Shown here piece by piece: positions 18,473 to 63,820 of a stretch of 64,000 bases of DNA (its first letter is position 1; each line of letters starts with the position of its first letter). The DNA is from Echinarachnius parma (taxonomy: Eukaryota > Echinodermata > Echinoidea > Clypeasteroida > Echinarachniidae), in contig JBAMJV010003993.1 in the NCBI GenBank assembly GCA_037951105.1, forward strand, positions 248,001 to 312,000, written 5' to 3'. The notes beneath the pieces were generated by a model that had not been told where the DNA came from, ran no database searches, and saw only the letters and a list, made by a program, of their open reading frames with translations. The position numbers and the translations under genes are program-made.

Positions 18473-18742
18473 ATAACAAATATTTTTAAAATGCAAAAAA
18501 TACAAAAAAATGCAATTTTTGCATAATTAATTAGCTCTAATTAGAATATTCTAATTAATTGTTTTTGTTTTACCTACGCAATATTGTAGACCTTATGGAC
18601 ATCTATCACCATGCCAAATTTGGAGCCGATCAGAGTTTTGGTTGCCGAGATCTTAGGGGGGGCCCTTTTAGCCCCCCCCCCCCCCCCCCCCCCCCCGTTT
18701 TTTAAAGGTTCAAAATAGCCTTTTTAGTCTTTTTAGGGTTAA

Positions 18743-19420
18743 ATTTGCAAGTTTAGAATCGTTTAAACGATTTTAGTCAGTGGCGTAGCGACAATAATTT
18801 GGAAAAAACAATAGAAAACACAAGGGGACATTTTTTGAAAAATAAAGAAATACATAAGGTGTGCCGTGCCGTTCAGGAAATTAAAAAATTTGCATTCCGT
18901 GTTGATGCTTCAGAAACGAATCGCACGGGTCTTAGCGTTTAACCCATAAACTGCTGAAATTCTATGTATACATGTAGTTCCGTTAACTGCCGAGCATATT
19001 TTAAGGTAGAGTGGAATTTGTACTTCAGTTACCTAAAAAATTGCATAAAATTGTAGGAAGGTGCTATGGTTGTAAATGAGGTATCATTTGAAAGAGTATG
19101 ACATGTCCTAAATCATGAACCATATTTTGTGGTTATGTGATGTAATTTGACACCCTATTACGTAACATTTATTTCAAACAAATACATAAGACTTGGTTAT
19201 GTAATAGTGAACTTTCTTACAAAACCATACCAGAAGATGTTTTGTTTTTCTCCATTTTTTTCAGGATCAGATGGGTCAATATTCATAATCCTTTGCTGAA
19301 AATTTAAATTGTTCAGGCCCATTATTTTTTTTATTTCATTTTTTTATATATTTTTGATACCGGGTGTCAAATTACTTCCAAAAAGTGGTCAGCTGTTGTA
19401 TGTCAGTGAAATTGGTTACT
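18743..19420. other. No gene seen
   Basis: AT-rich spacer after the outer TTAA element. It contains phrases such as 'gtatcatttgaaag' that recur loosely in other repeats of the window (around 44360 and 44590), so it is probably old transposon sequence. Confidence 0.4.
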
Positions 19421-34624: not shown

Positions 34625-35219
34625 TTAAATCGGTGCCACTTTACATATGGATTGAGCATAAACTATTCTACATGTTTTACAAGATCATTGATAAAAGTCA
34701 TATGCAATATGAAAAGGTCTCTGATTAGCGTAGTTGCCAATTTCATAATGTACTGCTCTGAAAAGAAAATAATCCGACTGGCACAGTTATTATTTTTCAT
34801 CAACCATAGAATTATGTGTCAGCTCCATAGCTCCAGAATTAAGAATGAAGATTGATGTTATATCTATATGTAATATGTAATTCAATTTTCCTTCATATTC
34901 TATTTAGATACTGGTTCGTGGTTGATCATTGATCAATCACAATGCCCGAGCTGGAATATCAATGTCCCCGTATTTGTCATTATTCAGACTGTTTCATCCA
35001 TTACATAGATTACTCTTCAATTAACCGCTAGGCCAAGACGTCATTGCGAACGTAGAAGTAGAGTTCAATCAAATATGACTATGTCGTAGTTATACTGTAA
35101 ACAAGACAATGCATTATTATCCATTTCCATATCCATATCCATATCCATATGGATACACATGTTCAAATCTTGGTGTAATATGTTTTCACGGATATGTTGT
35201 AATATCAAAATTAACTCAC

Positions 35220-41200: not shown

Positions 41201-44200
41201 AGTAACAGGTTGTGACGTTGCAAAAGGCTTCTAATCTTGTTCAACCAAGTTCCTTCATGATGGCTGAGTTTTGGGGGCATGTAACAGCCCTCTCAATTTT
41301 ATTGTTATTAATCAGACAAATCATTGTCGTATTTGGGACAAATGTTAAAGGGATCTAGTAATATTCTCAAAATCCTGAACACTTACTTGGAACTCTAGCG
41401 GCTCTCCCATACTTTGTTGTATTCGTATTAACAATAGAAGCATGGGACCAGTTTCGGTCTTTTGAATTTACCTTTTTGTTAAAAAGACAATATTACTAGA
41501 TCTCTTAAATCATAGTGCATAATAAAACAATGTTGCATTAACAATTAGTACTTTGGCACATTGCTCTTTTCACATGCGTCAATAAGATGAAAACGTCTCA
41601 CCTTTTCGTTTAGCCAGTTGGGATGCTCCAATGTTTGTAAGTCCAGCACGTCCAGCTCGTACCCACCTATATAGTAGCAAACTGTTCTTTCTAGTTTGTC
41701 AGCCTTTTTATCTGTCAGCAGATGAACAATTAGAAGAAACTAGATGGATCTTCGATTGCCCGCAATCGAAAATTATGCCTCCGCTATCACACGATTTTAA
41801 TATCAAGCCCAAATTAACATGCACTGATTTAATTTTTTAAAATATTTTTCATATATATTTTGAGTCCTGTGACCTTGACCATATGACCCCAATCTTTGAT
41901 GGCTCCCTAAAAAACATTCAGGTACGAAGTTTGATTGAAATTTGACATTTAGTTCTTGACATTTTGGCATTACAAGCTTTTTTGCATGTATAATGAGTCC
42001 CGTGACCTTGACCTCAACCTCATGACCCCAACATTTTATGGCTACGTTGACTCTTTATGATACATTCAGGTACCGAGTTTGATTGAAATCTGACATTCAG
42101 TTCTTGAAATTTTGCCATTACAAGCCATTTTCGCATACATATCGAGTCCTGTGACCTTGACCTTTGACCTCATGACCCCCCAAATCTAATCAGATCAGTC
42201 GCACCCTGATATGTACACTCATACCAAGTTTGAAATTGATCCGTCAACCGGTTCTTGAGATATCGCAAGAACAAAGCATTTTTGCGCATACATTGAGTCC
42301 TGTGACCTTGACCTTTGACCTCATGAACCCCAAAATCTAATCAGATCATTGCCACCCCAATATCTACACTAATACCAAGTTTGAATTAGATCCGTCAACC
42401 GGTTCTTGAGATATCGCGAGAACGAGGCATTTTTGCATATATATTGAGTCCTGTGAATTTGACTTTTGACCTCATGACCGCTAAAATCTAATCAGATCAC
42501 TGTCACCCCAATATGTACACTCATACCAAGTTTGAAATTGATCCGTCAACTGGTTCTTGAGAGAACGAAAACGGTACGGACGGACGGACAACCCAAAAAC
42601 ATAATGCCTCCGGCCACTTCGTTGGCGGAGGCATAAAAAAATGTTGCGTTTCCCACGATTGTTCTTGTGAATTATACCTCATTCATGCCTTAATCTAAGG
42701 TATGGTTCGCAATATTTACAGATTGGACTAAAAATGAGTAGAACTATATAAATCAAATCATTATAATATGGCAAACTGACAGGAAATTATATAAAAAATG
42801 GAAAAAAGAATAAACATTCCAATCCAAACTAGATGGATCTTCGACTGCGCGCAGTCGAAAATGATGCCTCCGCCATTACACGATTTATTTATATCAAGCC
42901 CAAATCAACATGTACACTGAATTAATTCTGTCAACTCAATTTTGATGGTACTCTGTCTTTTAGATCTTGACGTATCACAATTATGAGCTATACCTTTGCC
43001 CTCATGACCCCAAAATCTAATGACTACAATTGCTCCCTATTATTACATTCAGGTATCAAGTTGGATTGACACTGATATTCAGTTCTTGAGATTTCCAATC
43101 AAAAGCTACTTTTACATATAATGAGCCCTGTGACCTTTGACCTCATGAACACAAAATCTAATCAGTTCATTGGCTCCCCAAGAAACATACATGTACCATG
43201 TTTGGTCAGAATCCGTCAATTGGTTCTTGAAATAACACGATCACGAGCTGTTTCTTGCATATAAAATAAGCTCTGTGACCTTTGACCTCATGACCCCCAA
43301 AATCTATTCAGTTCATTGGCTCCCCAAAATACATACATGTACCACGTTTGGTCTGAATCCGTCAATCTGTTATTTAGATTACGCGATCAGGAGCTATTTT
43401 TGCATATATAATGCAGGGGTGTGAGAGCAAGATTGAAAAAAAAAATCTGAAAAAATCTGAAATGAAAAGTGTGGGCGAAGCGCACACTACGAGCGCGAAT
43501 CGCGAAGTCCCTTAGGCCGGGGTTCAGGGCCCGCCTAGGGCCCTGGAAGCTCTGGGGTTCTAGATGCTCTCTGGTGCAATCTAGGCTTATTTTGGAAAAC
43601 ATTTCTTTCAATTTAAAATGGTTGGTTTTTGGATATTTTTTTTTTTTTTTTACAGAATTGTTTCATACCTTGATACCTGAGGCTTGAAACTTGACATCTA
43701 GGACAACCAGTGTGCTTTTCAATATAATCTGCTGCCTGGAACCTAGTATTTGCTAGTGACAGGTCGAAATAACACCAGACAACTATCACAGTTTGTAGTG
43801 AAATCAAGTTCTTTTCAGTTATGAAGAGCTGAAAAAGTTTTTGTGAAATCAAATCTTCAAATTCAATTGCCCATACATTCCATGGTAGAGGGTTTCCAGA
43901 TGGTGACTTAGCTTAGTGCTGTAACCGACCTTGATGATCGGATCAAAAAATCAGATCAGCAAATTCTTGATTCATGATGGGATCGGATCGGAAATCGGAT
44001 CGGAAAAAAAAAACACAAACAAAAAAATAAAAATGGTCATGCGTCATGAACTCGCCTCCAAATAGGGTGGCGCCGTTACATTTTGGGTTTTTTTACTACC
44101 ATTTTCTTTATTATTTTCAAAACCAGAAAACCTTTTTTAACAAATTTGGTATCATTTTAAAGAGCTATGAGAGTGCTACCTTTCTGCAAAGTTTTAATTG

Positions 44201-47200: not shown

Positions 47201-50200
47201 GAAAAATTATCATGAAAAATATTGACCTCTGTAACTGGAAACAAAATTTCACATTTTGATTTTATAACAAAATAAGTATACACCTAGTGTTATTTCTGAG
47301 TGGATATTTGGATTCCTTGTGAAATTTCCTTTCAGAAAATGTATACTTTTGATAGGATAGGGGGAGTTCTTCAGAAAATATTTGCTCTCAACTGAAACAT
47401 TGTCCCGCAGAAGCCCAAATCGGCATGTAACGCAAAAGGAGGCGACCTCATGACACATGACCAAATAAATAAATCAATAAATAAATTTTTTTTAAATAAT
47501 AAAATGTATTTATTTGTTTTTTTTTTTATAGCGGAAAATGAAGATTGCTGTTTGAATCGGAGGTCTCACACCCCTGATAATGAGCTCTGTGACCTCCCAC
47601 CTCATGACCCCAAAATCTAATCAGTTCATCGGCCCCTTAAGTTGCATACATGTACCAAGTTTGGCAGAATCTGTCAATCGATTCTTGAGATAACGCGATC
47701 ACAAGCTAGTTAGGCATATAATGAGCTCTGTGACCTTTGACCTTTCACCTCATGACCCCAAAATCTAAACAGTTCATCAGCCCCTTAAGTAACATACATG
47801 TACCAAGTTTGGTCAGAATCCGTCAATCCGTTCTTGAGATAAAGCGATCACGAGAATGGGACGTACGGATGGACGGACAACCTGAAAACATAATACCTCC
47901 AGCAACTTCATTACGGAGGCATAATAAAAATATTTACCTCCATTATGACCAGACTTGAACTATGACATAAACATGAGTTAAAATTAAGTTTATTTAAATG
48001 CTTAAAACCACAACAAAAACTGGGCTTCCTTTCTAATTAACAATTTGATTTGTTGCCCGTTTAATAGTGCCATTTAGCTTTAATTAAGCCATCTTCTTCT
48101 TTATTTTCAAAAGGTGTATGTTTTAGACAAAAATAAACTAAATAGCATACTCACAAACTGCCTCCAACTTCTTTGCAATCTTTGGTCTGATATAATTCCT
48201 TTTCGGTTTCCCGAGGCCTTTTTAGAAAAAAAATAGTTGAATCATCATTGTTTTAGGAAGGGATAATACCAGAAGGCAATGCATTCTCTTTACTGTCGCA
48301 CCAAATTCAGGATCAATTTACTATATTCATTTCCCCTTAGCATTATCCGAGCAGATGAAAGATTGTATCAATATCAAATAATTGTTCTATTCCACATATG
48401 AGTATTATTCCCAAACAATATGTTACTATTGGGAATACGTATGGATCGGAAGAGAAATCTTGTCTTACAGTAAACATGATTTTAATAATAGTTAATGAGA
48501 AATGTTTGATTATCATAAATAAGCCTATTGCTAACATAAATGCAATTAACCCAATCATTTCTGTGCAGAAGTTTAACTAATAGACATTTCTAATAACAAT
48601 TTAAACATTAACCACAATTCCGAGCAATCTGTACTTGCAAATGAAAGTAGTTCTGCTGAGTGTTCTGAAAATGGTGACATATAACTTAAATTCTACTACG
48701 TTGACGGTGTACCTAATTTGTTTGACCGTTATTTGGAAATACATACGTTTGACATCGTTCTTTGGTGGCTTTGCAGGATTCCCACCCCCAGCATACTTGT
48801 TGTTCCTGCTTGTTACGATGAAAGACGTGGCTCTCTCATCCTCCTGCACATGTATCTGAAGAGATGCTGCTTCGTCCCAACGCTGCATCACATGATTAAC
48901 AAATTTTGGGGGCAGGAAGGCTGGTATCTCCGCTGTGTACTGTCTTGTACTCAAAGATGCCAAAACGTTTTCCCCCACATAGCTGTAAGACAATATCATA
49001 CTTTAATTTCACACGTACAACTTAAATGTTTAAATACACAATTATTAGCAAATGAATATCAATGTGTGTATATTACATAACAGACAATACTTACTGTACA
49101 CCACATACCGTTACAATGGTTTCATCAATGCTAAACGTTTTTTTGAAATTAATTCATGTGTATGTGATGTTACTTTAAAAACTCCTTACTTTTACTCATT
49201 GCGATAACACTTAAATTCGTTTTTAATAATGGTGAAACTTGTTATATCGTCTAGCAGCTGGCTAATGGTTTGAGTCTTCTTGTACCAGACTGTCGACAGT
49301 ACAGCATTCTGGGACTCCACTCCGTTGAAGCAACCCACTAGGACTGGTCTGACAATGTCAACTTCATATGTCTCTGGTAGATTCCCTTCATGATTTCCAG
49401 TGGGTAGACTGTACCCTCATCAATATCCAACCCCCCCCCCCCCCCCCCCCCCCATCCCCATCTCCCCTCAGTGTGACCATTACTACACTAATATCACTGT
49501 ATCTACTATAATACTCACAATCTTCCCATACAGAAGTAATCCATTTGGACTGGTCTGACAATGTCAACCTCATATGTCTCTGGCAGATTCCCTTCATGGT
49601 TCCTGGTCAAGTCTTCACAGAGAGGGAAAGTGAACAAATTAAAAGTGAAATATGAGTGCGTGGAGTAATTCACATAATTTAAATATCACTTCATTGTTAA
49701 TTCAATAAAGGAACAGGTGCACAAAGAAAAATACAAATATCGCTGGAGTTACAGGGGACCCCCAGGCAAAGAACAACACACAGTTATATGTTTTGGTACC
49801 GTTCTGTGAATTAAATAGATGCCCAACACTCTGAAAAGGTTTGTGTAATTCATAAACAATACAGTTGATTACCAACACTTACGGAACCAACATGGCCCTG
49901 TATGCGCCAAAACACACAAAACAGCATTCCTTTTTGTATGTACATTGTAACTGATTGATTTGCATGTTTCTCTCAGGGGACAACCTCGATAAGCTTATGT
50001 TTTGCTTTTGTTGTCCCTACCACTTAATTTATTATTGTTTAGTTTGATGTATACACCAATGTCCAATATTTACCTGTATTTTACTGTAAATGTACACATG
50101 AATTGTATTTAAAATTGTGGAAATAAAATGAACTGAGCTGAACTGAATAATTCTAAAAGAATTGATTCTTCATAGCGATAGGTAGGTCCAAAATACAGCA

Positions 50201-52442
50201 TAAATAATGAAGGGTAAATTACCTAAATAAGACTTGCCATGGAATTCTTTGTCAAAGTTTAAGCTGTTCTTGCATCTGAAAAGAGAAAAAACAAAGCATG
50301 ACAACTCGCAAAGTAAATCACTAAAATATTAACAAAACATAATGCAAACTACATGGATGCCTCCGCCATCGCGCGATTTATATGAGCAGAGTCACATTTG
50401 ACCTTCGACCTTCAGCTGACTGGTGACATCTATGTATGTTTGATCGTTTTATTGTTTTTCTGAATGATGAGCAGGCAGACCAAAAGGCTTGGTCATTTTC
50501 TGATTTGTATTTTTCGTAAGTATTGAACTGGAATCTGGTGATGAATGACCGAATGACCAGTAGACGAAATAGATAGTAGACCAAATTAATTAAAAGTAGA
50601 CAAAAATTTATCGGAGATCAAATATAAAATAGATTAGTAGACATGTTGTTGACAAACTGCCTTCGTAGACCACATAACATCTGGATGAAACTGTGTTAGA
50701 CTGAATGGTTATTATGGACATAATTGTATCAAAATATTAGATGCGATGACATATAGACGAAATGCGTAGTAGACACATTGGGTGCATAATTAGCCATATA
50801 AGGAGCGGATGAACCAAAACTGGGAATGGTATATGAACCAAAGGAGAATGGTTATAAATCATGGCCTTTGGTAAATAAAGACATACACAATGATAAAACT
50901 AGACAAAATTAGATCATCAGTTCGAAATACGCAAATCTAATTGGTTGAAACACGCAAATTTTCTCACTTACAATTGATTTTATAGCTTTCTGCAACGGGG
51001 CTAGGCACTTATATGTCAAAATAATCTTAGTATTAAGTATGTTTTTTTCAGGACTTTAAAGATATTATAACTGAATATAAAGAATTATCAACTTGGTGAA
51101 GAGTTTCAAAAATTTGGTGAAGAAATATTTCAATCATAAGAGCATATTTTACTGTGTTTCAAGGACGGTGTGAAGAATTAAAAGTCAACATAACCTACAT
51201 AAGTTTTGGGGAATGTTACAGTGAACCTCGTTACAGGGGAACCTCGTTAAAGAGGAACCTTGTTACAGGGGAACCTCGTTACAGGACAAATCTTATTACA
51301 GGGAAACCTTGTTACAGGGGAACCTCGTCATTTATTAACCCACAAGGACTAGAGCTATCTTAAAGCAATATTGATCATTGTTTGCCTCTACAAATTGGCA
51401 TCTCCTAATTGTTTCAACCTTATAATGACTTAACCCTATCTTAACTGGGGGGTCAATTTGACCCCCCCCTCGACTTTTTGCACGATAATTCCGCAACGCG
51501 CGCAGATATTGCTGCGTGACTTCATGAGTTTTTTCACTGAAGTCTTGCGCAACTTTTGAGACCAAATTTGCGACGACCGGGTATACCGTTCTAAAGTCAC
51601 TGACCTTTTGTAAGTGAGCGTCGGCCCAAAAATCGCTAAATTTTGTGATTTGTGTACAAATCCTATGGAAATTGATTTTTTTCCTAGAAAAGACAAAATC
51701 TTCATTATTTTTCATTCTAATCACTGCAATTATGTAATTTTGGGCTAAAAATGTTTGGATAATGGTCAATAATTATTTCCATTGGAAAAAACAATAAAAA
51801 ACATAAGTCGAAAAAACAAAGAAATACATAAGAAATTCCAAAAACAAAGAAACACATTAAAAAAAAAAAAAATTTTTTGAAAACCTGTTAATTAAGTCAT
51901 AGAGAATATTCATGTACAAAATCAGCATATTCTGAGCAATATTTAGTGATTTACAGACAAAAAGAGGATTTTTGCATAAAAGTAGCGTTTTTCGCTAATA
52001 TGCGTATAATTTGCATATTTAACATTGGATCGATGAAAACATGAACGCGTCGCTAACACTTCAATGTACCTCCATGCAAAATTTCGCGTGAATCGGACGA
52101 GCGGTCTCCGAGATGTTAGGGGGGGTCAAATTGACCCCCCCCCCCCCCCCCAGTAAAAACCTGGTCTCAAATAGCCCAGTTAAGATAGGGTTAAAAATAG
52201 GCGGAAAATATTTAGTAATTAACATAAAGACAAACAGTGACTTTGCCAAAAAGTTGCCAATTTGAATACCAAAATCTATTTAGAAAATATCAAAATGGGC
52301 GGCAATTTAAGGATTTTCCTAAATTATAGCAATCTACGCAACAATAAAAATCCTTTAAAAAAACTGAAGCAGACTCTCCACTCACCTTTGAATCCTGTTC
52401 TCTAATCTTCTCACTGGACTGGGGTTGATGTACTTGAAATAT
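35220..52442 (-). CDS. Ulp1/SENP-like (C48) cysteine protease, internal exons
   Basis: Minus-strand exons in order: 52442-52386, 50275-50223, 49612-49519, 49408-49196, 48982-48747, 48217-48155, 41666-41602, 36972-36868 and 35368-35220. All have AG/GT sites and compatible phases, giving about 345 residues. The C-terminal part shows the Ulp1 protease fold: HPNWLNEKVINAYLHLP, VFVMPAYVPW-like IFVMPAYVPWRSSNFEPFLE, then FIPINVENRHWILL (catalytic His) and SILDSAG (catalytic Asp). The family removes SUMO or related modifiers. The upstream part (NLPETYEVDIVRPV, YTAEIPAFLPPKFV, RATSFIVTSRNNKYAGGG) is not a domain I recognise. The start and the catalytic-Cys exon are not visible, so the gene extends both ways. 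Introns are full of transposons. A few boundaries (49612-49196) are uncertain. Confidence 0.78.
35633..36146. mobile_element. F5 TTAA MITE in protease intron
   Basis: 514 bp, TTAA at 35629-35632 and 36147-36150, ends AGGGATAGTTCAGTTT and AAACTGTACTATCCCT. Homologous to 30742-31294. Non-coding. Confidence 0.85.
36180..36693. mobile_element. Palindromic MITE with a second MITE nested in one arm
   Basis: Outer arms start TATAAAGGCCTGG and end CCAGGCCTTTATA. Pairing continues through CACGACTAGACCCAC and a central set of 'ttcttgatatcaagaa' inverted motifs. The left arm is split by the GTTGCAG MITE (36191-36357); the intact right arm shows the unoccupied sequence. Confidence 0.85.
36191..36357. 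mobile_element. GTTGCAG-type palindromic MITE
   Basis: Ends GCCCCGTTGCAGAAAGAG and CTCTTTCTGCAACGGGGC, flanked by CCTGG on both sides, a 5-bp target duplication confirmed against the other arm of the host MITE. About 165 bp. Confidence 0.85.
37163..37910. repeat. 'gaccttgacc' repeat element, copy 1
   Basis: Starts TAGATGGATCTTTGACTGCG and contains internal units of about 140-150 bp with GTGACCTTGACCTTTGACCT, AAGTTTGATTGAAATCTGAC and GTTCTTGAGAT. The 3' end is truncated. A perfect DR1 nuclear-receptor motif lies at 37478-37490. Confidence 0.75.
39384..39771. mobile_element. F4 TTAA MITE (filled site)
   Basis: 388 bp, TTAA at 39380-39383 and 39772-39775, ends AGGGACTTAGTAACATT and AAGTTACTAGATCCCT. 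The sister duplicate at about 41047-41060 has the same flanks with a single TTAA and no insert. Confidence 0.95.
40324..40388 (-). other. Duplicate copy of protease exon (HPHWLNEN version)
   Basis: 65 nt, same phase as 41602-41666, encoding GYELDVLDLQTLEHPHWLNE then N. It differs at Asn to His before the conserved Trp, and at the last codon (AAC/GTGAGA instead of AAG/GTGAGA). The duplication breakpoint lies about 6 nt upstream of its acceptor, so its polypyrimidine tract is replaced by unrelated sequence. Including both copies would shift the frame. Confidence 0.7.
40399..41677. repeat. Tandem duplication, copy 2
   Basis: About 1279 bp, the F4-free sister of 38727-40398. Holds the protease exon 41602-41666, which keeps its original upstream intron. 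Confidence 0.92.
41738..42637. repeat. 'gaccttgacc' repeat element, copy 2 (complete)
   Basis: Starts CTAGATGGATCTTCGATTGC followed by AATTATGCCTCCGC, and ends GGCGGAGGCATAA: TATGCCTCCGC and GCGGAGGCATA are inverted. Between are about six units of roughly 145 bp built round GTGACCTTGACCTTTGACCT and CAAGTTTGAAATTGATCCGT. Perfect DR1 motifs at 42158-42170 and 42309-42321. Non-coding. Confidence 0.8.
43414..47576. mobile_element. hAT-like non-autonomous element
   Basis: 4163 bp with inverted ends CAGGGGTGTGAGA and TCTCACACCCCTG and a 6-bp flanking repeat ATAATG (43408-43413, 47577-47582). CAGGG ends fit hAT transposons, although hAT duplications are usually 8 bp. No transposase is visible. The interior is dominated by a 2.35-kb palindrome. 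Confidence 0.7.
44652..47006. repeat. 2.35-kb palindrome
   Basis: Arms of about 1.0 kb (44652-45660 and 46000-47006) around a spacer of about 0.33 kb. Outer ends are TGGGTCATTCCATGTCAAAT and its complement. Both arms contain a GTTGCAG MITE remnant at the same place (45355-45432 and 46204-46314). Confidence 0.9.
49196..49612 (-). other. Duplicated segment within two adjacent protease exons
   Basis: 49600-49545 and 49398-49340 are near-identical and both encode NHEGNLPETYEVDIVRPV. They lie in two exons (49612-49519 and 49408-49196) that chain in phase, so the protein may carry the motif twice. Alternatively the upstream exon is a broken copy like those in KIFBP. A C-run (49433-49453) lies in the short intron. 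Confidence 0.55.
49613..51220. other. Intronic sequence with repeat fragments
   Basis: Apart from exon 50223-50275 this holds a fragment like the left end of 32926-32975 (49750-49815), a short 'gaccttgacc' fragment (50352-50410), a 'gtagac' minisatellite (about 50520-50830) and a GTTGCAG MITE tail (about 50925-51003). Confidence 0.5.
51228..51330. repeat. 18-bp minisatellite
   Basis: About six units of GGAACCTCGTTACAGGGG with small variations. Confidence 0.85.
51434..52190. mobile_element. F1 TTAA MITE (intact type copy)
   Basis: 757 bp, TTAA at 51430-51433 and 52191-52194, ends CCCTATCTTAACTGGG and CCCAGTTAAGATAGGG. G-run/C-run hairpins sit just inside both ends (51447-51471, 52120-52152). 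Homologous to 21843-22598, 32980-33690 and the outer element at 14297-18738. Confidence 0.93.
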
Positions 52443-52525
52443 CTGTGAAAAACCAAAAACAAGTACAAATTTAAATACAGACAATGGTGAAAAGAATAAA
52501 TATATGATTAAATATTAAACATTAA

Positions 52526-53250
52526 AGGAGGGGTGCAATCCCGGCTTTGATTCAGGTTTATAGCTTTAAATATGTGCCTTTATTGATATACCACACTCTT
52601 TTTTTCAAAGAAATCCTAAAGTTGGGAAAAAAAGGTAAATTTCATGCAACTATTTTGCTTTATTACGCATCGGCGTTCCATGCTCCTAAAAAAAGTCATT
52701 TATAGCAGAGCGGAAATGTGCGCACGTGTCACCCGATTCATGACATCACATGCAGACCGCAACGCGGAGGAATGTGCATTGTTTACATGCAGAGCCTATG
52801 ACTTGCTTGTAAAACAAACTCGTTTTTGCTTGTAAATTGAGGTTTTACTGAAAATGCTTAAGAATTGCTAAGAAATGAATTGTAGCAGGATGCAGCTACA
52901 CATCTGAGTGTATATCGTCCCATGATATAAACCTGTACAAATGTTTGCAAATATTGAAACAAATGGAAATAATATCTCTGTGTCAACGTGAGTATTGTAC
53001 TCAGCGTGTACGTCTATGACCGAGCTAAACTGCGATTGCCTGCAGGCGACGTCACAAAGATGACGTCATTTTTTGTTCGCCCGGGACTCAGTTTTTTTAC
53101 GGGGGTTCCGAAAGAGAATTTACAAGTTGATTTTTTTATTTTACCGGGTTTTCCCACGAGGAAAATATGTTTGTATTAGTAATCTTCATGAAAATCTACC
53201 TTAGATACAGTAAAACCCAATTTTGAGGCAGTTTTCTTGTCACCATACCT
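52526..53250. mobile_element. F6 TTAA element
   Basis: 725 bp, TTAA at 52522-52525 and 53251-53254, ends AGGAGGGGTGCAATC and CACCATACCT. It sits at the same TTAA of the array unit that other units have filled with F4. Non-coding; end-to-end inverted similarity is short. Confidence 0.75.
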
Positions 53251-53391
53251 TTAAGTGACTTTGCCGAAAAGTTGCCAATTTTAATACCAAAATCTATTTT
53301 GAAAATATCAAAATGGGTTGCCAATTTAAGGATTTTTCTAAATTATAGGAATCTACGCAATAATAAAAATCATTCAAAAAAACTAAAGCAG

Positions 53392-53897
53392 GTAGAGTAT
53401 CAAAATAGGGCTTTAAAAATAGAGAAATTTAGGCTCCTTCTCCTTGTAGACTTCATATAACTTTGTATCTTCTTGCTAAGGTGTAAGACTACCAACCCAC
53501 AAACATGTGGGACACCGTCCTTGACGGGTGCCAACAAATATAAACTTATTCTTTAAAAGCTGAGCAAAGAACATTTACATTTTGGCTGGATTTTCTTCCT
53601 TTTTTCATTTAAACTAACACAACAGCACCTGAAAAAATTAAATAATGCATTCAAAATAATCTGTTTAATAAGGTGAGTGAAAATGAGCAAAAAATAGGTA
53701 TATCCCAGAGACCTTCGGATTTCTAGACTAGTGCTTAACCATATTAGAATGTTGAGAGACAATCAATGTACGGCCGAGATAGCTCAGTTGGTAGAGCACT
53801 GGGCCAGTAATCTGGAGGTCTCTGGTTCAAGGCCTGCAACATTCAACTTTCCTTTGCTCCCCAATTATTGATCTAATGTTCATTTTCTCTACAACAG
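53392..53897 (+). mobile_element. tRNA-SINE-containing insert (506 bp), repeated through the array
   Basis: Absent from the first array unit, where AAGCAG joins ACTCTCC directly. It contains a tRNA-like head at 53773-53841 with A box TAGCTCAGTTGGTAGAGC and B box GGTTCAAGGCC. Other heads are at about 55592-55662, 61700-61770 and 62873-62943, plus a truncated one at 54952-54989. The anticodon and acceptor stems do not fold canonically, so these are SINE sequences and not tRNA genes. Confidence 0.75.
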
Positions 53898-53910
53898 ACT
53901 CTCCACTCAC

Positions 53911-53967
53911 ATTTGATTCCAGTTCTCTACTCTTCCCACTGGATTGCGGTTGATTAACTTGAAATAT
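53911..53967 (-). other. Protease exon copy 2
   Basis: 57 nt with acceptor TTTTCACAG and donor GTGAGT. In the frame used by 52442-52386 it reads YFKLINRNPVGRVENWNQ, with no stop. Confidence 0.7.
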
Positions 53968-54049
53968 CTGTGAAAACCAAAAACAAGTACAAATTTAAAT
54001 ACAGACAATGGTGAAAAGAATAAATATATGATTAAATATTAAACATTAA

Positions 54050-54427
54050 AGGGACTTAGTAACATTGTCGAAATCCTCAAAATAAATTTTTCATTCTAGC
54101 GGTTCCCTCATACCTTGTTGTATTCGTATTAACAATAAAATCATGGGACAGGTTTCGGTTTTTCAAATTTCCCTTTCGTTACAAAGATATGTACGATCGA
54201 AGTATTCAGATAAGAAAAACTCTGGGCGAGTTTTTCTTCTGTGTACAAAGTGAGTGCAGTGAGTTATTGAATATCACTTTGCATTTTCGCTCATTACTTG
54301 GCCATGCAATGTCCATTTAACTTGAAATTTTCACACGATACCCTGTGGACATATGAGATAACAATAATATACATTGAATCAACCATTCATCACTTTTTGC
54401 ACATGTCAACAAAGTTACTAGATCCCT
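54050..54427. mobile_element. F4 TTAA MITE in array
   Basis: 378 bp, TTAA on both sides (54046-54049, 54428-54431). Other array copies are 60799-61176, 61979-62356 and a truncated one at 63151-63317. Ends as in 39384-39771. Confidence 0.95.
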
Positions 54428-55731
54428 TTAAGTGACTTTACCGAAAAGTTGCCAATTTTAATACCAAAATCTATTTTGAAAATATCAAAATGGGTTGCCA
54501 ATTTAAGGATTTTCCTTAATTATACCAATCTACGCAATAATAAAAATCATTCAAAAAAACTAAAGCAGGTAGATTAACAAAATAGGGCTCTAAAAATAGA
54601 GAAATTTAGGCTCCTTCTCCTTGTAGACTTCATATAACTTTGTATCTTCTTACTAAGGTGTAAGACTACCAACCCACAAACATGTGGGACACCGTCCTTG
54701 ACGGGTGCCAACAAATATAAACTTATTCTTTAAAAGCTGAGCAAAGAACATTTACATTTTGGCTGGATTTTCTTCCTTTTTTCATTTTAAACTAACACAA
54801 CAGCACCTGAAAAAATTAAATAATGCATTCAAAATAATCTGTTTAATAAGGTGAATGAAAATGAGCAAAAAAATAGGTATATCCGAGAGACCTTCGGATT
54901 TCTAGACTAGTGCTTAACCATATTAGAATGTTGAGAGACAATCAATGTACGGCCGAGATAGCTCAGTTGGTAGAGCACTGGGCCAGTATATACATTATAC
55001 AATATACAATATACATTGAATCAACCATTCATCACTTTTTGCACATGTCAACAAAGTTACTAGATCCCTTTAAGTGACTTTACCGAAAAGTTGCCAATTT
55101 TAATACTAAAATCTATTTTGAAAATATCAAAATGGGTTGTCAATTTAAGGATTTTCCTTAATTATACCAATCTACGCAATAATAAAAATCATTCAAAAAA
55201 ACTAAAGCAGGTAGATTAACAAAATAGGGCTCTAAAAATAGAGAAATTTAGGCTCCTTCTCCTTGTAGACTTCATATAACTTTGTATCTTCTTGCTAAGG
55301 TGTAAGACTACCAACCCACAAACATGTGGGACACCGTCCTTGACGGGTGCCAACAAATATAAACTTATTCTTTAAAAGCTGAGCAAAGAACATTTACATT
55401 TTGGCTGGATTTTCTTCCTTTTTTCATTTTAAACTAACACAACAGCACCTGAAAAAATTAAATAATGCATTCAAAATAATCTGTTTAATAAGGTGAGTGA
55501 AAATGAGCAAAAAAATAGGTATATCCGAGAGACCTTCGGATTTCTAGACTAGTGCTTAACCATATTAGAATGTTGAGAGACAATCAATGTACGGCCGAGA
55601 TAGCTCAGTTGGTAGAGCACTGGGCCAGTAATCTGGAGGTCTCTGGTTCAAGGCCTGCAACATTCAACTTTCCTTTGCTCCCCAATTATTGATCTAATGT
55701 TCATTTTCTCTACAACAGACTCTCCACTCAC

Positions 55732-55788
55732 ATTTGATTCCAGTTCTCTACTCTTCCCACTGGATTGCGGTTGATTAACTTGAAATAT
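55732..55788 (-). other. Protease exon copy 3
   Basis: 57 nt, identical in coding sense to copy 2, with intact splice sites. It is only about 70 bp from the left end of the DIRS element. Confidence 0.7.
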
Positions 55789-55855
55789 CTGTGAAAAACC
55801 AAAAACAAGTACAAATTTAAATACAGACAATGGTGAAAAGAATAAATATATGATT

Positions 55856-55907
55856 TTATTACGTAAGTCTCCGATCGAGACTACATCTCGATTGGAACTA
55901 TATGAGA
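55856..55907. repeat. DIRS left inverted terminal repeat
   Basis: TTATTACGTAAGTCTCCGAT... to ...AACTATATGAGA, repeated perfectly inverted at 60438-60492. Confidence 0.9.
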
Positions 55908-56076
55908 TCCCGCTTGCGCGCATGTGTCAATTCGTTTGGCGCTAGTGTAACACGCGAGAGGTGCTCTCGCCTGTCAGTTAAAAAACACTCAGAATTTCGT
56001 TGAAATTCGCTGTTTTGAACACTGTAATATATTCAAACGCATTCTATCATTTGCCTAGATCGTAGATTTGGGAAAA

Positions 56077-57336
56077 ATGACATCGAAGCAATCCGCAGGC
56101 GTGGCCGCGGACGGAAAGAAAACTGATAAAGATATGCCTAGACTCGTGGAGTCGGCTGTCCCTGCACCCAACGGCCGCGCAGCGGCGGTAAACCCGAAGC
56201 CCGCGGGGCCCGGGAAGGCTCCGAACACGAAAGGAAAGCCCGGTGCAGGTGGAAAACACAAACAGAAATCAGTCCCGGCCGCGGCGGGAGTATCAATGCG
56301 CGATACTGACAACGTGAACTCTCGTCTCGACAAACTCGAATCTATGCTGGGCGATTTCATCGCGGCTCAAACTCAAAGCCCTACTGCGGGAGTATCATCC
56401 GCCAGCCGTTACGGCGCCGCGGGCGCTAGTTTGCCGCCGGCTGAGAGTCGGCGCAGCCGAGATTATGACTCGATTGATTTGGCGTCGGATGATTACATGA
56501 GCACAGACGATGGTGCGGATTTGGATCCTCCAAACCAACATACGAGCGAAGCTGACAGTGACAAAGTGCCTTTGCTCGCCGCAAGATATGCCGTGGCTGT
56601 CGATGTCGGGCAGCCCCTCGATGATGAACTGGCAAACTCGGTGAAATATTTGATGAGCAACCAGTTGGAGGAAAGGAAGCTTGACGAGACCGCCAGTAAA
56701 TATCCATGCCCTGCCAATTCTCAACTGGTCGATGCACCCAAAGTAAACCAGTCAATTTGGGATAACCTATCCGCTCCAGTCCGTACAAGAGATATGAAAC
56801 TTCAGCGGGTTCAGAAGTCGCTGACTAGGGGCATAGCGGCTTATTTGAGCCTGCTCGACCCCGAGAACATTGGGGAGGAGCAACAAGACACTCTCGCCTT
56901 GCTGTGCAACGCAAATTTCGAAATGAACGCCCTGCGAAAGGAACTGATTAAACCAGACTTGAATAGTCAGTTCACACATCTTTGCAAACCCTCTAATGCG
57001 GTAACTAAATTCTTGTTTGGCGACGACCTTGGCCGCCAGGTTAAAGATCTACAGGACCAGCACAAGGCGGCCGCAGGGGTAATGCGTGGGCACCAGCGGG
57101 CCCCAAGACGCCAACACCCATATCGTGGATACGGGCAAAGCCCCAGCGTTTCCCGCAGAGCCAGAGATGCGGGGTGGACGGGTGCTTCAGCGGGGAACTC
57201 GGCCAGGCCTTTTTTAGGCCAGCGAGACAGCTGGAGGAGGAGGACCCCGATGCAGGCCCCTCGCACGTTCACGCCAGCTACAGCCTCGAGACCGCTACCC
57301 CAGCAACCTCGTCGAGGGGGCCAGGGGAGGAAGTAA
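56077..57336 (+). CDS. DIRS ORF1, gag-like protein
   Basis: 419 codons from the first ATG (56077); the frame is open slightly further upstream. The protein is Lys/Ala/Pro-rich at the N-terminus, has a short predicted coiled segment (LDKLESMLGDFIAA, about residues 85-100), a Ser/Asp-rich acidic stretch, and a helical middle (VQKSLTRGIAAYLSLLDPEN). It ends in an Arg/Gly/Gln-rich basic tail (QQPRRGGQGRK) suited to RNA binding. No zinc knuckle is seen. Position and composition match gag-like ORF1 proteins of DIRS elements, which are assumed to package the RNA. GC content is markedly higher than in the surroundings. ORF2 overlaps its 3' end in the -1 frame. Confidence 0.82.
   Translation: MTSKQSAGVAADGKKTDKDMPRLVESAVPAPNGRAAAVNPKPAGPGKAPNTKGKPGAGGKHKQKSVPAAAGVSMRDTDNVNSRLDKLESMLGDFIAAQTQSPTAGVSSASRYGAAGASLPPAESRRSRDYDSIDLASDDYMSTDDGADLDPPNQHTSEADSDKVPLLAARYAVAVDVGQPLDDELANSVKYLMSNQLEERKLDETASKYPCPANSQLVDAPKVNQSIWDNLSAPVRTRDMKLQRVQKSLTRGIAAYLSLLDPENIGEEQQDTLALLCNANFEMNALRKELIKPDLNSQFTHLCKPSNAVTKFLFGDDLGRQVKDLQDQHKAAAGVMRGHQRAPRRQHPYRGYGQSPSVSRRARDAGWTGASAGNSARPFLGQRDSWRRRTPMQAPRTFTPATASRPLPQQPRRGGQGRK
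57210..57216 (+). promoter_or_regulatory. Candidate -1 ribosomal frameshift site (T TTT TTA)
   Basis: The heptamer lies in the ORF1/ORF2 overlap with ORF1 codons CCT TTT TTA, exactly the X XXY YYZ register. A -1 slip passes directly into the ORF2 frame (AGG CCA GCG). GC-rich sequence that could form a stimulatory stem follows. Confidence 0.65.
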
Positions 57337-59381
57337 CAAGCCAACAATCTACAGGGCATGAGGTACGTCACAATAATTTTGATTATGATGATGATTATGA
57401 TGATGACGATGATGATAATCTTGATGGTAATCCAATCACTAATGATAACACATCCACCCCTGTTGGGGGTCGACTGAAGCTATTCACTCACAATTGGGGT
57501 AAACTCACATCAGACCCATACATCCTGCACGCTGTGCAAGGCTATGAATTGGAATTTGACCCAGAAAAATTCCCACCTTCTCGTGATAGACCTATACACC
57601 AATTTAAGCGTAATGCTGCAGATGCAGCTATGATTCTTGAAGAAATCCATAACCTTCAAGCCAAGGATGTGGTCGAACAGTGCGAGCATGAGAAAGGGGA
57701 GTTCATTTCAAATATATTTACGAGACCAAAGAAGAGTGGAGGCACAAGACTGATATTGGATTTGTCAGATCTAAACAAGAGTGTTGTCTACCAACACTTC
57801 AAAATGGACAACATACATACTGCCCTCACACTCATTTCCCCCAATTGTTTCGTAGCTTCAGTCGACCTCCGTGATGCTTATTATACTGTCCCTATTCATC
57901 CTGATTCAAGGAAGTACCTCCGATTTATGTGGAATGGGACACTATGGCAATTTAAAGTCCTTCCAAATGGGCTTAGTTCTGCGCCCCGTCTATTTACAAA
58001 GATACTTAAACCTGTCTTTGCAAAACTTCGAGAGCAGGGTCACATTGTCGTTGGGTACCTAGATGATACACTTATCATGGGGAAGACGGCAACAGAAACA
58101 AAAGCAGCAGTGGTGGCAACTACTAGCTTGTTGACTGAATTGGGATTTATTGTGCACCCTCATAAATCTGTTCTCGACCCAGTTCAGGAAATAACGTTTC
58201 TTGGGTTCAGGCTCAAAACAAAAGAAATGGTGGTTGAGCTACCAAAAGATAAAAAACATGACATAGCCCAGTCATGTACAAAATTGATCAATGAGGTGCA
58301 GCCCTCAATCAGACTTGTTGCCAGGGTAATTGGACAATTGGTTGCCACATTCCCTGCAGTACAATATGGGGCCCTCTACTACCGATCCTTGGAAAAGGAC
58401 AAGATATGTGCGCTCTCGGCCAATAAGGGACATTACGATAGGCACATGACTCTGTCAGTAGAGAGTATTAATGAATTGCGATGGTGGATAAAAAACTTGC
58501 AATCCCAATATAGACCGATCCAAAGGGACAGGCCTACCATTGAAATCCACACAGATGCTAGTGGGAAAGGTTGGGGCGCCACGGACCTAACGGTTGAAAC
58601 AGGTGGCCGGTGGAATGACACCGAAATGAAGCATGCACGACACAATGAAATAAACGTGCTTGAAACAATAGCAGTTTCACATGGTCTCCGGGCTTTCTGC
58701 TCCGACATTCGTAATGTGCATGTGCTTGTGAGAGTAGATAACACTACTGCCGAGGCATACCTTAATAATATGGGAGGTACAAAATCTTACAAGTGTAATG
58801 AGAAAGCCAAAGAAATCTGGGAGTGGTGTATCAGTAGGAACATTTGGATTACCGTTGCATACCTGCCAGGCAGACTCAATGTCGAGGCCGATCGAATGTC
58901 TCGCAAGTTCTGTGACACAACAGAATGGATGCTCAGTAAAGCAGTGTTTGAGGAGATTATAGACAGGTATGGCATGCCCCACATTGACTTGTTTGCATCG
59001 CGGTTAAACAAGCAACTAGACCGTTACGTGTCTTGGAGGCCAGACCCAGACGCAATTGCCGTTGACGCGTTTACTGTGAACTGGAGTACATGGCAATTCT
59101 ATGCTTTTCCTCCTTTCAACCTTGTTGCCCGATGTTTACAAAAAATCCAATTCGACCAGGCTGCTGGTATATTAGTAGTCCCTAACTGGCCGTCACAGGC
59201 TTGGTTCCCCATCTTAAAAGACATGCTCATCGAGGAACCAATGATCATAGGCGGGCAAAAGCTACTATTGACACAGCCCGTAACGGGTACACCTCACCCT
59301 CTCAATGAACGTCTTTCTCTTTTATGTTGCAGGCTTGGAGGGGAGTCTACAACAACAAAGGCATCAGCAAAGGTGCAGTAG
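57217..59381 (+). CDS. DIRS ORF2: reverse transcriptase, RNase H, methyltransferase-like region
   Basis: Open in the -1 frame relative to ORF1 from before 57174 to 59381; the first in-frame ATG is only at about 57630, so expression probably uses frameshifting. Order: RT fingers (SGGTRLILDLSDLN), palm (SVDLRDAYYTVPIH), LPNGLSSAPRLFTK, catalytic YLDDTLIMG, then FLGFRLK. RNase H follows with HTDASGKGWGAT, the Glu of NEINVLETIAV, VRVDNTTAEAYL and NVEADRMSR. The last part (PHIDLFASRLN... VDAFTVNW... AFPPFNLVAR) resembles the Dam-like methyltransferase region described in DIRS elements, with FPPF where active enzymes have (D/N)PPY. It synthesises the element's DNA copy. Confidence 0.9.
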
Positions 59382-60331
59382 ACATCATAGCTGCCTCATG
59401 GAAAGGATCTACAAGGACGCAGTACCAGGTGTACGTCAGGAAATGGCAGCGTTTTTGTACCGAGAGACACATAAACTCCATGCAGACAAAAATTGGTGAA
59501 GTACTTGATTTCTTCACAAACATGTTCAAAAATGGTGCTTCTTATAGTACAATCAACTCTGCTAGAAGTGCCCTTTCCGCATTTCTTATCATTGACGATG
59601 GTAGTCATACTCTCGGATCACATCCTGTTGTACATAGATTTATGAGAGGCATATTTAACATGAGGCCTCCGGCCCCTCGATACTCGTCTACATGGGATGT
59701 AAAAACAGTTCTAGACTACCTCCGCAAGCTCTCCCCAGCCAGAACGCTGGGCTTACCTGCATTAACGCAAAAATTAACTATGTTGATAGCCTTGGTATCT
59801 GCCCAGAGAGTGCAGTCTATTCAAGACATTAGCTTGGATAGAATGAAGATGAAGAAATCTTCTGTTGAAGTATGCTTTAGCAATACGCTAAAACAATGTA
59901 AACCTGGAAATACAGGATTTAATGTTAATTTGCAAGCGTATCCTCCAGATAGGAGGTTGTGTGTAGTAACCTACATGAAGGAATATGTAAATAGAACAGA
60001 TAGCAAAAGAGGGATGGAAAGGAACCTCCTCATCACTTACAAGAAGCCTTATCACCGTGCTACGACACAGACTATATCGCGTTGGATCAAGACGGTAATG
60101 TCATCTGCGGGAATAGATACGCAGATTTTCAAACCTCATTCCACGAGAGCGGCATCCACGTCGGCAGCACAGAGGGGTGAAGTGCCAGTGTCGCGGATTT
60201 TAGCACGTGCGGGATGGGCGTCTGAGGACACCTTTAGGAGGTTCTATTGCAAGCCTTTAATGGACTCGGGACAGTTTGCAAATGAGCTGTTACGGCAGTC
60301 GAGCAGCACAGCTCAGCATATCCCTAAATAG
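59324..60331 (+). CDS. DIRS ORF3: tyrosine recombinase
   Basis: 335 codons from ATG 59324, overlapping ORF2 by 58 nt in another frame. The N-terminal core-binding part (TQYQVYVRKWQRFCTER) is followed by a catalytic domain with all expected residues: Arg in ALVSAQRVQSIQDIS, His-x-x-Arg in KPHSTRAASTSAAQ, and the nucleophile Tyr in TFRRFYCKP, preceded by RILARAGWAS. In DIRS elements this enzyme integrates a circular DNA intermediate without target duplication, in agreement with the ends observed here. No disruption is seen. Confidence 0.93.
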   Translation: MLQAWRGVYNNKGISKGAVDIIAASWKGSTRTQYQVYVRKWQRFCTERHINSMQTKIGEVLDFFTNMFKNGASYSTINSARSALSAFLIIDDGSHTLGSHPVVHRFMRGIFNMRPPAPRYSSTWDVKTVLDYLRKLSPARTLGLPALTQKLTMLIALVSAQRVQSIQDISLDRMKMKKSSVEVCFSNTLKQCKPGNTGFNVNLQAYPPDRRLCVVTYMKEYVNRTDSKRGMERNLLITYKKPYHRATTQTISRWIKTVMSSAGIDTQIFKPHSTRAASTSAAQRGEVPVSRILARAGWASEDTFRRFYCKPLMDSGQFANELLRQSSSTAQHIPK

Positions 60332-60437
60332 CAGAGCTCAGACCCTTGATAGGCTGAGGTATGTGATATTACTGTTTCTCTTCGAGTTGCAGTCTCTGTT
60401 ATTGTGGTGTACTGTACATGACTACAGGGCTTTAAAG

Positions 60438-60492
60438 TCTCATATAGTTCCAATCGAGATGTAGTCTCGATCGGAGACTTACGTAATAAAAT
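60438..60492. repeat. DIRS right inverted terminal repeat
   Basis: Exact inverse of 55856-55907, starting TCTCATATAGTTCC and ending TACGTAATAA. Confidence 0.9.
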
Positions 60493-60782
60493 AGGAAGAT
60501 TAAATGAGAACTTTAGTTTGAAATTTAATATAAATTTTATTAGTAAGACGTAGTGAGAGACTACATCCCTCCTCACCCACCCAGATCTTACTATTATCAA
60601 GAAGTTCTCATCCTAATCATCTTCCTATGTTGGTCCTGTAGTCACGTACCAGCTTTGAATATTGACACATGCGCGCAAGCGGGATCTCATATAGTTCCAA
60701 TCGAGATGTAGTCTCTCACTACGTCTTACTAATAAAATTTATATTAAATTTCAAACTAAAGTTCTCATTTAATCTTCCTATT
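60493..60782. repeat. DIRS right tail with outer hairpin and copy of the left end
   Basis: 60493-60567 and 60705-60779 are mutual complements (AGGAAGATTAAATGAGAACT and inverse). Between them, 60660-60714 is the complement of sequence at 55882-55935 (TGACACATGCGCGCAAGCGG). This fits the internal complementary region used for circularisation, but is longer and more folded than a simple one. Confidence 0.75.
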
Positions 60783-61838
60783 AAATATTAAACATTAAAG
60801 GGACTTAGTAACATTGTTGAAATCCTCAAAATAAATTTTTCATTCTAGCGGTTCCCTCATACCTTGTTGTATTCGTATTAACAATAAAATCATGGGACAG
60901 GTTTCGGTTTTTCAAATTTCCCTTTCATTACAAAGATATGTACGATCGAAGTATTCAGATAAGAAAAACTCTGGGCGAGTTTTTCTTCTGTGTACAAAGT
61001 GAGTGCAGTGAGTTATTGAATATCACTTTGCATTTTCGCTCATTACTTGGCCATGCAATGTCCATTTAACTTGAAATTTTCACACGATACCCTGTGGACA
61101 TATGAGATAACAATAATATACATTGAATCAACCATTCATCACTTTTTGCACATGTCAACAAAGTTACTAGATCCCTTTAAGTGACTTTACCGAAAAGTTG
61201 CCAATTTTAATACCAAAATCTATTTTGAAAATATCAAAATGGGTTGCCAATTTAAGGATTTTCCTTAATTATACCAATCTACGCAATAATAAAAATCATT
61301 CAAAAAAACTAAAGCAGGTAGATTAACAAAATAGGGCTCTAAAAATAGAGAAATTTAGGCTCCTTCTTCTTGTAGACTTCATATAACTTTGTATCTTCTT
61401 ACTAAGGTGTAAGACTACCAACCCACAAACATGTGGGACACCGTCCTTGACGGGTGCCAACAAATATAAACTTATTCTTTAAAAGCTGAGCAAAGAACAT
61501 TTACATTTTGGCTGGATTTTCTTCCTTTTTTCATTTTAAACTAACACAACAGCACCTGAAAAAATTAAATAATGCATTCAAAATAATCTGTTTAATAAGG
61601 TGAGTGAAAATGAGCAAAAAAATAGATATATCCGAGAGACCTTCGGATTTCTAGACTAGTGCTTAACCATATTAGAATGTTGAGAGACAATCAATGTACG
61701 GCCGAGATAGCTCAGTTGGTAGAGCACTGGGCCAGTAATCTGGAGGTCTCTGGTTCAAGGCTTGCAACATTCAACTTTCCTTTGCTCCCCAATTATTGAT
61801 CTAATGTTCATTTTCTCTACAACAGACTCTCCACTCAC

Positions 61839-61895
61839 ATTTGATTCCAGTTCTCTACTCTTCCCACTGGATTGCGGTTGATTAACTTGAAATAT
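61839..61895 (-). other. Protease exon copy 4
   Basis: 57 nt with intact AG and GT sites, coding sense as in copies 2 and 3. Confidence 0.7.
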
Positions 61896-63010
61896 CTGTG
61901 AAAAACCAAAAACAAGTACAAATTTAAATACAGACAATGGTGAAAAGAATAAATATATGATTAAATATTAAACATTAAAGGGACTTAGTAACATTGTCGA
62001 AATCCTCAAAATAAATTTTTCAGTCTAGCGGTTCCCTCATACCTTGTTGTATTCGTATTAACAATAAAATCATGGGACAGGTTTCGGTTTTTCAAATTTC
62101 CCTTTCGTTACAAAGATATGTAGGATCGAAGTATTCAGATAAGAAAAACTCCGGGCGAGTTTTTCTTCTGTGTACAAAGTGAGTGCAGTGAGTTATTGAA
62201 TATCACTTTGCATTTTCGCTCATTACTTGGCCATGCAATTTCCATTTGACTTGAAATTTTCACACGATACCCTGTGGACATATGAGATAACAATAATATA
62301 CATTGAATCAACCATTCATCACTTTTTGCACATGTCAACAAAGTTACTAGATCCCTTTAAGTGACTTTACCGAAAAGTTGCCAATTTTAATACCAAAATC
62401 TATTTTGAAAATATCAAAATGGGTTGCCAATTTAAGGATTTTCCTAAATTATACCAATCTACGCAATAATAAAAATCATACAAAAAAACTAAAGTAGGTA
62501 GACTAACAAAATAGGGCTCTAAAAATAGAGAAATTTAGGCTCCTTCTCCTTGTAGACTTCATATAAATTTGTATCTTCTTGCTAAGGTGTAAGACTACCA
62601 ACTTACAAACATGTGGGACACCGTCCTTGACGGGTGCCAACAAATATAAACTTATTCTTTAAAAGCTGAGCAAAGAACATTTACATTTTGGCTGGATTTT
62701 CTCCCTTTTTAACTATTACAACAGCACCTGAAAAAATTAAATAATGCATTCAAAATAATCTGTTTAATAAGGTGAATGAAAATGAGCAAAAATATAGGTA
62801 TATCCGAGAGACCTTCGGATTTCTAGACTAGTGCTTAACCATATTAGAATGTTGAGAGACAATCAATGTACGGCCGAGATAGCTCAGTTGGTAGAGCACT
62901 GGGCCAGTAATCTGGAGGTCTCTGGTTCAAGGCTTGCAACATTCAACTTTCCTTTGCTCCCCAATTATTGATCTAATGTTCATTTTCTCTACAACAGACT
63001 CTCCACTCAC

Positions 63011-63067
63011 ATTTGATTACAGTTCTCTACTCTTCCCACTGGATTGGGGTTGATTAACTTGAAATAT
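63011..63067 (-). other. Protease exon copy 5
   Basis: 57 nt with intact splice sites, reading YFKLINPNPVGRVENCNQ. The substitutions W to C and R to P distinguish it. Open in the required frame, although another frame has a stop. Confidence 0.7.
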
Positions 63068-63820
63068 CTGTGAAAAAACAAAAAAAAGTACAAATTTAAA
63101 TACAGACAATGGTGAAAAGAATAAATATATGATTAAATATTAAACATTAAAGGGACTTAGTAACATTGTCGAAATCCTCAAAATAAATTTTTCAGTCTAG
63201 CGGTTCCCTCATACCTTGTTGTATTCGTATTAACAATACAATCATGGGACAGGTTTCGGTTTTTCAAATTTCCCTTTCGTTACAAAGATATGTACGATCG
63301 AAGTATTCAGATAAGAAACAAGTACAAATTTAAATACAGACAATGGTGAAAAGAATAAATATATGATTAAATATTAAACATTAAGTGACTTTGCCGAAAA
63401 GTTGCCAATTTTAATACCAAAATCTTTTTTGAAAATATCAAAATGGGTTGCCAATTTAAGGATTTTCCTAAATTATAGCAATCTACACAATAATAAAAAT
63501 CATTCAAAAAAACTAAAGCAGGTAGATTAACAAAATAGGGCTCTAAAAATAGAGAAATTTAGGCTCCTTCTCCTTGTAGACTTCATATAACTTTGTATCT
63601 TCTTGCTAAGGTGTAAGACTACCAACTTACAAACATGTGGGACACCGTCCTTGACGGGTGCCAACAAATATAAACTTATTCTTTAAAAGCTGAGCAAAGA
63701 ACATTTACAGTTTGGCTGGATTTTCTCCCTTTTTAAAATTTAAACTAACAAAACAGCAACTGAAAAAATTAAATAATGCATTCAAAATAATCTGTTTAAT
63801 AAGGTGAATGAAAATGAGCA

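Follow-up and report, generated by a model that had tools for sequence, protein, structure and literature searches.

Tandem copies of a KIF-binding protein exon in a putatively decaying gene duplicate of Echinarachnius parma

When a small exon recurs in tandem and every copy keeps its splice sites and an open frame, do the copies serve a gene that can choose among them, or have they only been multiplied together with the DNA around them? This question is raised by a 57-nt exon on the reverse strand of Echinarachnius parma contig JBAMJV010003993.1 (assembly GCA_037951105.1), here called C3991. The window, that is, the whole stretch of DNA analyzed, is C3991:248001-312000 (64,000 nt). Positions are those of the window unless a contig is named, and searches of the genome covered 1.2 Gb in 14,790 contigs, including a homologous contig, C9178. 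The mitochondrial COX1 of this genome has AAA at the second N of PRMNNMSFW, AGA where serine is expected, and ATA where isoleucine is expected, a usage consistent with the echinoderm genetic code (which flatworms share) and with an echinoderm host. A first-pass annotation assigned the exon to a Ulp1/C48 protease gene and proposed that its copies could generate protein variants. Here we identify the array exon, by sequence match, as E12 of KIF-binding protein (KIFBP/KBP, KIAA1279), which encodes a C-terminal stretch of the KBP_C domain (PF12309). The array very probably reflects passive tandem amplification, by an ordinary mechanism, of this symmetric exon in a decaying duplicate of the gene. 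Exons of the KBP gene are labeled E1-E14 in our own numbering; E1', E4', E11', E12', E10'', and E11'' denote copies in a partial KBP duplicate, and c1-c7 the array copies of E12'.

Results

The five copies in the window lie on the reverse strand exactly where the first-pass annotation had placed them: c1 (52386..52442), c2 (53911..53967), c3 (55732..55788), c4 (61839..61895), and c5 (63011..63067). As it had also described, each is preceded by TCACAG and followed by GTGAGT, is entered in phase 2 with one nucleotide completing a codon and left in phase 2 with two, and is free of stops in that frame. Two further copies to the right of the window, c6 (C3991:314442-314386) and c7 (C3991:315684-315628), bring the total to seven, all of which keep AG and GT at their edges. 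The most diverged copy is c1 (YFKYINPSPVRRLENRIQ), which differs from the other six at 8-10 nt, whereas c2 (YFKLINRNPVGRVENWNQ), c3, and c4 are identical and c5 (YFKLINPNPVGRVENCNQ) differs from them at 2 nt. The donor context is AAG/GTGAGT in c1, as in the near-complete KBP gene described below, and AAT/GTGAGT in c2-c7. The seven copies are 92-100% similar over at least 131 nt, which excludes chance. A whole-genome search with 147 nt of the array unit (9/9 candidates scored) gave 10 matches, namely, the seven copies, a flank without an exon (C3991:311316-311374), and two KBP loci with one match apiece, where E12 is located at C3991:244564-244508 and on C9178 from 59877. At the sensitivity of this search, no array was found elsewhere in the genome.

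The identification of the exon is based on several lines of comparison. The array unit matches E12 of the near-complete gene and its flanks at 80% over 147 nt (6.5e-29) and at 86.7% over 285 nt, and this E12 aligns to human KBP at about residues 554-570. The array exon has the same length (57 nt) and the same phase 2 at entry and exit as E12 of the near-complete gene, so that its length, phase, and boundary codons are all inherited; the exon order and phases of that gene also reproduce the exon boundaries. The upstream neighbor agrees as well, since E11' (C3991:316122-316029) precedes c7 just as E11 precedes E12 in KBP. We rejected the view that the array exon precedes E10 and E11, contrary to KBP order, because E11' lies just upstream of c7. 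The two exons thought to be joined to the array, starting at 50275 and 49612, are KBP-derived too; like the array exon, these copies (E10'' and E11'') have matching counterparts, with the same phases, in this genome's KBP gene. Placed in KBP order, E10''-E11''-c1 matches KBP_C at 2e-5 over residues 1-59 of 62, across c1 (24.5 bits, below the curated cut-off of 29.5), compared with 1.8e-22 for E10-E13 of the near-complete gene. When E10'', E11'', and c1 are followed by E13-E14 of the other gene, the match reaches 5.1e-19 over residues 19-112 of 116. In the order of the first-pass annotation, c1-E10'' had no KBP_C match, and the block of c1 with the 50275 and 49612 exons had a weak one (0.19) located on the 49612 exon. 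The protease label of the exon is thus replaced by a KBP origin.

The near-complete KBP gene spans C3991 from 254.6k to 241.4k and lies partly inside the window (E1-E7, 1..6592, reverse strand), from which it continues to contig position 241.4k. We call it near-complete because we did not locate its first coding exon or the segment that links E2 to E3. E3-E14 joined in order match human KBP (6zpg) at 4.2e-88 over 427/429 query residues, E12 included; E7-E14 match KBP_C at 6e-77, and E1-E2 match the same 6zpg chain at 4.3e-13 (residues 27-57 and 92-143). E10, E11, E12, and E13 measure 38, 94, 57, and 67 nt and read CKNSLNFYKEFL-D-STRNHEG...CMGR-L-YSKFIVPHPGGRLENLDK-S-MEHYKAVV. In a tblastn search of C3991:208-359k with 14 KBP exon pieces (matches kept at E<0.05), 14/14 were found at 254.6-241.4k. 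Genome-wide, KBP_C gave 10 matches, comprising the KBP exons at C3991 246.8-250.3k and C9178 53.8-57.6k, a piece at C3991:316920-317000, and a weak piece at C9178:6434-6556.

Local repeats were also seen within the near-complete gene. The last ~72 nt of E7 are repeated eight more times, plus a fragment, with a 74-bp period in the next intron, on C3991 (248099-247389, beginning at window positions 1-99) and on C9178 (56374-57084); the units read include the 5' splice site, which makes a row of tandem donors on both contigs. E3 is present in three copies (3437-3021), the second with no obvious AG acceptor by eye and the third differing between C3991 and C9178. E4 is tandemly duplicated on C3991 (2285-2551; 142-bp unit, 96%) and was found once on C9178.

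The array is placed ~46 kb upstream of the near-complete gene, within a scrambled and partial duplicate whose nearest piece is ~43 kb upstream and whose order is E1', E4', E11', E12' (seven copies), E10'', and E11''. The tblastn pieces upstream of the near-complete gene were E1 (contig 317261), E4 (317060, with a stop), E11 (316123), E12, E10 (298274), and two of E11 (297613 and 297401). Unlike intact KBP, this duplicate is reordered, most of its exons were not found, splice sites have been lost, and E4' carries a TGA stop and no longer has its acceptor AG. In E10'' (50238..50275, reverse strand; CKNSLNFDKEFH), the GT donor of the intact gene is now GC (CATG/GCAAGT versus CTTG/GTAAGT), and the exon of the first-pass annotation continues to a later GTAATT. 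E11'' (49519..49612, reverse strand; LTRNHEGNLPETYEVDIVRPVQMDYFCMGR) retains its splice sites, and a second, fragmentary E11 copy follows at 49327..49401 on the same strand. As far as the tblastn search at E<0.05 shows, the carrier copy does not have the full exon set, open frame, and splice sites of a functional KBP gene. Within the array, variable columns among c2-c7 number 2/57 in the exon, 5/71 in the 5' flank, and 5/200 in the 3' intron; the exon is no more conserved than its flanks. Divergence is so low that little can be learned from the retention of AG/GT and open frames. For E12 (c7) alone against the near-complete gene, the proportion of non-synonymous differences (pN, 0.231) is close to that of synonymous ones (pS, 0.281).

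Many blocks of C3991, among them dispersed repeats, recur in inverted orientation on C9178 at 75-99% identity; C9178 represents either the second haplotype or a duplicate of recent origin. Across thirteen KBP exon segments (E6 left out), the two contigs differ at 21/280 synonymous and 4/1070 non-synonymous sites. Upstream on C9178 the searches recovered no E10, E11, or E12; the only E12 of that contig sits in its KBP gene. The homology of C9178 at 17977-19312 has its boundary at C3991 297326, the lower edge of the E11 fragment: read from one side it stops there, and read from the array side it resumes. The array is therefore not common even to two homologous contigs of one genome. Other decayed KBP pieces on C9178 are E5, E6, and E8 at 0.1-6.6k; the E5 copy (C9178:127-336) contains an expanded run of CWIK-like repeats within the exon. 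Taken together, the copies of the first-pass annotation, with their size, phase, and open frames, stand, and its warning that splice-site conservation could be no more than a trace of recent homogenization is borne out. Its protease identity does not stand, and functional length or sequence variants are not supported, given the lack of excess exon conservation in c2-c7, the damaged carrier copy, and the absence of an array from C9178.

The array could have grown by a succession of common events. Because homology to the KBP gene, judged against C9178, extends furthest 5' in c7, we take this copy as the founder; a unit of exon and intron repeats would then have been duplicated. A miniature inverted-repeat transposable element (MITE) of ~390 bp with TTAA at both ends (54046..54432) recurs at 60795-61181 and 61975-62361, with partial copies at 63147-63318 and 55008-55074. 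It is whole, with both TTAA ends, at the upstream junction of c2 and c4 and partial in c5, and the junction lacks it in c6 and in a further unit, an orphan 5' intron flank without an exon (63316..63384, reverse strand). This flank is joined into the MITE; its upstream junction, the one that lacks a MITE, reads GTCAC-TTAA-TGTTT just above 63384. Insertion of the MITE probably took place in one unit, at the TTAA marking the duplication junction. That this MITE inserts at TTAA is shown by its copy at 39380-39776: in a duplicate of that stretch, 99.4-99.5% identical, the corresponding site at ~41050-41057 is unoccupied. Units repeat at 1172-1180 nt with 97.4% identity between 60780 and 63318, and unequal crossing-over may have spread the ~1.17-1.18 kb MITE-bearing unit. 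A DIRS-like retrotransposon (55856..60779, forward strand) interrupts the array ~67 nt upstream of c3; it has an open reading frame (ORF) at 56068-57336, a reverse transcriptase at 57174-59381 (5.6e-21), a tyrosine recombinase at 59324-60331 (1.2e-9), and inverted repeats. This element looks young and would have split the array later. Its three long ORFs are all on the forward strand, and an identical 78-nt inverted repeat lies near one end. A tRNA-derived short interspersed nuclear element in the unit, proposed because a segment appeared tRNA-like by eye, was rejected, as ARAGORN found no tRNAs in the window and the segment is common to an intron of the near-complete gene. An Rfam scan at gathering scores gave no matches.

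Two Ulp1/C48-like exons are situated on the reverse strand between the array and the near-complete KBP gene, one at 41602..41711 (KADKLERTVCYYIGGYELDVLDLQTLEHPNWLNEK), with an entry phase mismatched to the donor at 49519, and a catalytic one at 35219..35368 (VELHNFQWLFIPINVENRHWILL...). When c1, the 50275 and 49612 exons, and the C48 exons are chained, PF02902 matches residues 109-150 only, which is the C48 part, and KBP_C matches weakly (0.037) on residues 34-74, the E11'' part; c1 in this chain has neither match. A PDB search with one C48 exon alone gave no matches. The 41711-41602 exon differs from C9178:29578-29682 at 26/107 sites and the next intron at 13/246 (Fisher p 1e-6), so this may possibly be a Ulp1-like gene under diversifying selection, or else a converted intron. 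The second C48 exon has no such contrast (17/155 versus 13/114 flanking sites). In the same region, a tandem duplication of ~1.3 kb (38727-41674), whose twins are 99.4-99.5% identical, includes a truncated second copy of a C48 exon (from 40396 down) and has the MITE in one twin only.

Discussion

If the array is a passively amplified piece of a decaying KBP duplicate, the survival of its splice sites and open frames is explained by the youth of most copies and by the symmetric (2-2) phase of E12 in the parent gene, and not by any use of them. Several observations weigh against this reading. The chain E11'-E12'(x7)-E10''-E11'' would be open and in frame throughout if spliced. The ratio of non-synonymous to synonymous change (dN/dS), summed over five duplicate/near-complete exon pairs with the E4' stop left out, is 0.31 (18.5 synonymous and 25.5 non-synonymous changes), which suggests that the duplicate was not neutral and either was constrained for a time or reflects constraint on the branch of the other gene. 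At 297-318k, tblastn found only E1, E4, E10, E11, and E12, but very short exons could be missed, as the search recovered 2/7 array copies of E12 and left 5/7 below the cut. Finally, the contrast between exon and 5' flank in c1 might be taken as a sign of selection on the exon, although a crossover explains it.

The first two of these points, together with AG/GT in 7/7 copies, would also be expected of an expressed chimeric KBP-derived gene that runs from E11' through differing numbers of 19-residue E12' cassettes into E10''-E11'', giving length variants. However, E4' is broken and most exons were not found, no frame-continuing exon was found after E11'' (the join to 41711 gives a stop), the G at donor position -1 is absent from six of the seven copies, and C9178 has no array. 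We regard such a gene as improbable. Somewhat more doubtful still is that the decayed duplicate, its E11' followed by the E12' cassettes, was put to new use as a small chimeric gene, with protein length set jointly by E12' copy number and splicing in a recent and individual-specific array. Diversifying selection on E12' might have driven c1 away from the other copies: c1 and c4 differ at 9/57 sites in the exon but at 0/83 in the 5' intron flank (52443..52525 for c1, reverse strand; Fisher p 2e-4), and complete codons of c1 and c7 show seven non-synonymous changes and no synonymous one. Nevertheless, the 3' segment of c1 differs at 12/137 sites, not significantly below the exon (p 0.22, computed with 13/137), and chance alone could well yield a ratio of 7 to 0 (probability ~0.24 from site counts). 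In our reading of the alignment, c1 also retains the ancestral state at two sites that have changed in c2-c7, which would make it an older copy with a replaced 5' flank. The pattern across flank, exon, and 3' segment fits a crossover near the exon edge, and we prefer this explanation, in which recombination near the 5' edge gave the older c1 a young flank; diversifying selection appears very unlikely.

Two alternatives concern the locus as a whole. The region is repetitive and the assembly has 14,790 contigs, as might be expected of an assembly artefact, but the units differ in their MITE, in the DIRS-like insertion, in partial units, and by ~0.5-4% substitutions, which leaves an artefact only a slight chance. 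The least probable alternative is that proposed by the first-pass annotation, a Ulp1/C48 protease gene with a set of alternatively spliced exons. C48 exons do lie downstream on the same strand, yet the array exon and the 50275 and 49612 exons all match the KBP gene, and the chain c1-50275-49612-41711, which ends in the nearest C48 exon found, reads ...CMGRL-stop at its last junction. In addition, C9178 carries both C48 exons (63% and 71% protein identity) with no array upstream.

A Dscam-like protease, though a tempting reading, therefore falls away. The trap is a more general one: copies of a symmetric parent exon that were recently arrayed in tandem within a decayed gene copy still have their splice sites and frames, and they mimic a design for alternative splicing. 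Confined to one member of a pair of homologous contigs in a single genome, the array is at an early stage and could also show how such arrays arise.

Passive amplification of E12' resembles what is seen in an unprocessed pseudogene with tandem repeat amplification, with a partial gene copy that has introns, a stop, a lost acceptor, transposon insertions, and homogenized units. It differs in that a complete symmetric exon happens to lie within the amplified unit, which is why the frames stay open. With arrays of mutually exclusive or cassette exons, such as those of the Dscam type and those treated in PMC9013439 and PMC9741552, it shares tandem homologous exons, splice sites, and a symmetric phase. 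Human events are described in PMC9741552 as mostly ancient and their changes as mostly conservative. Unlike those events, the E12' copies are not arrayed on the homologous contig, six of the seven are nearly identical, and they look young.

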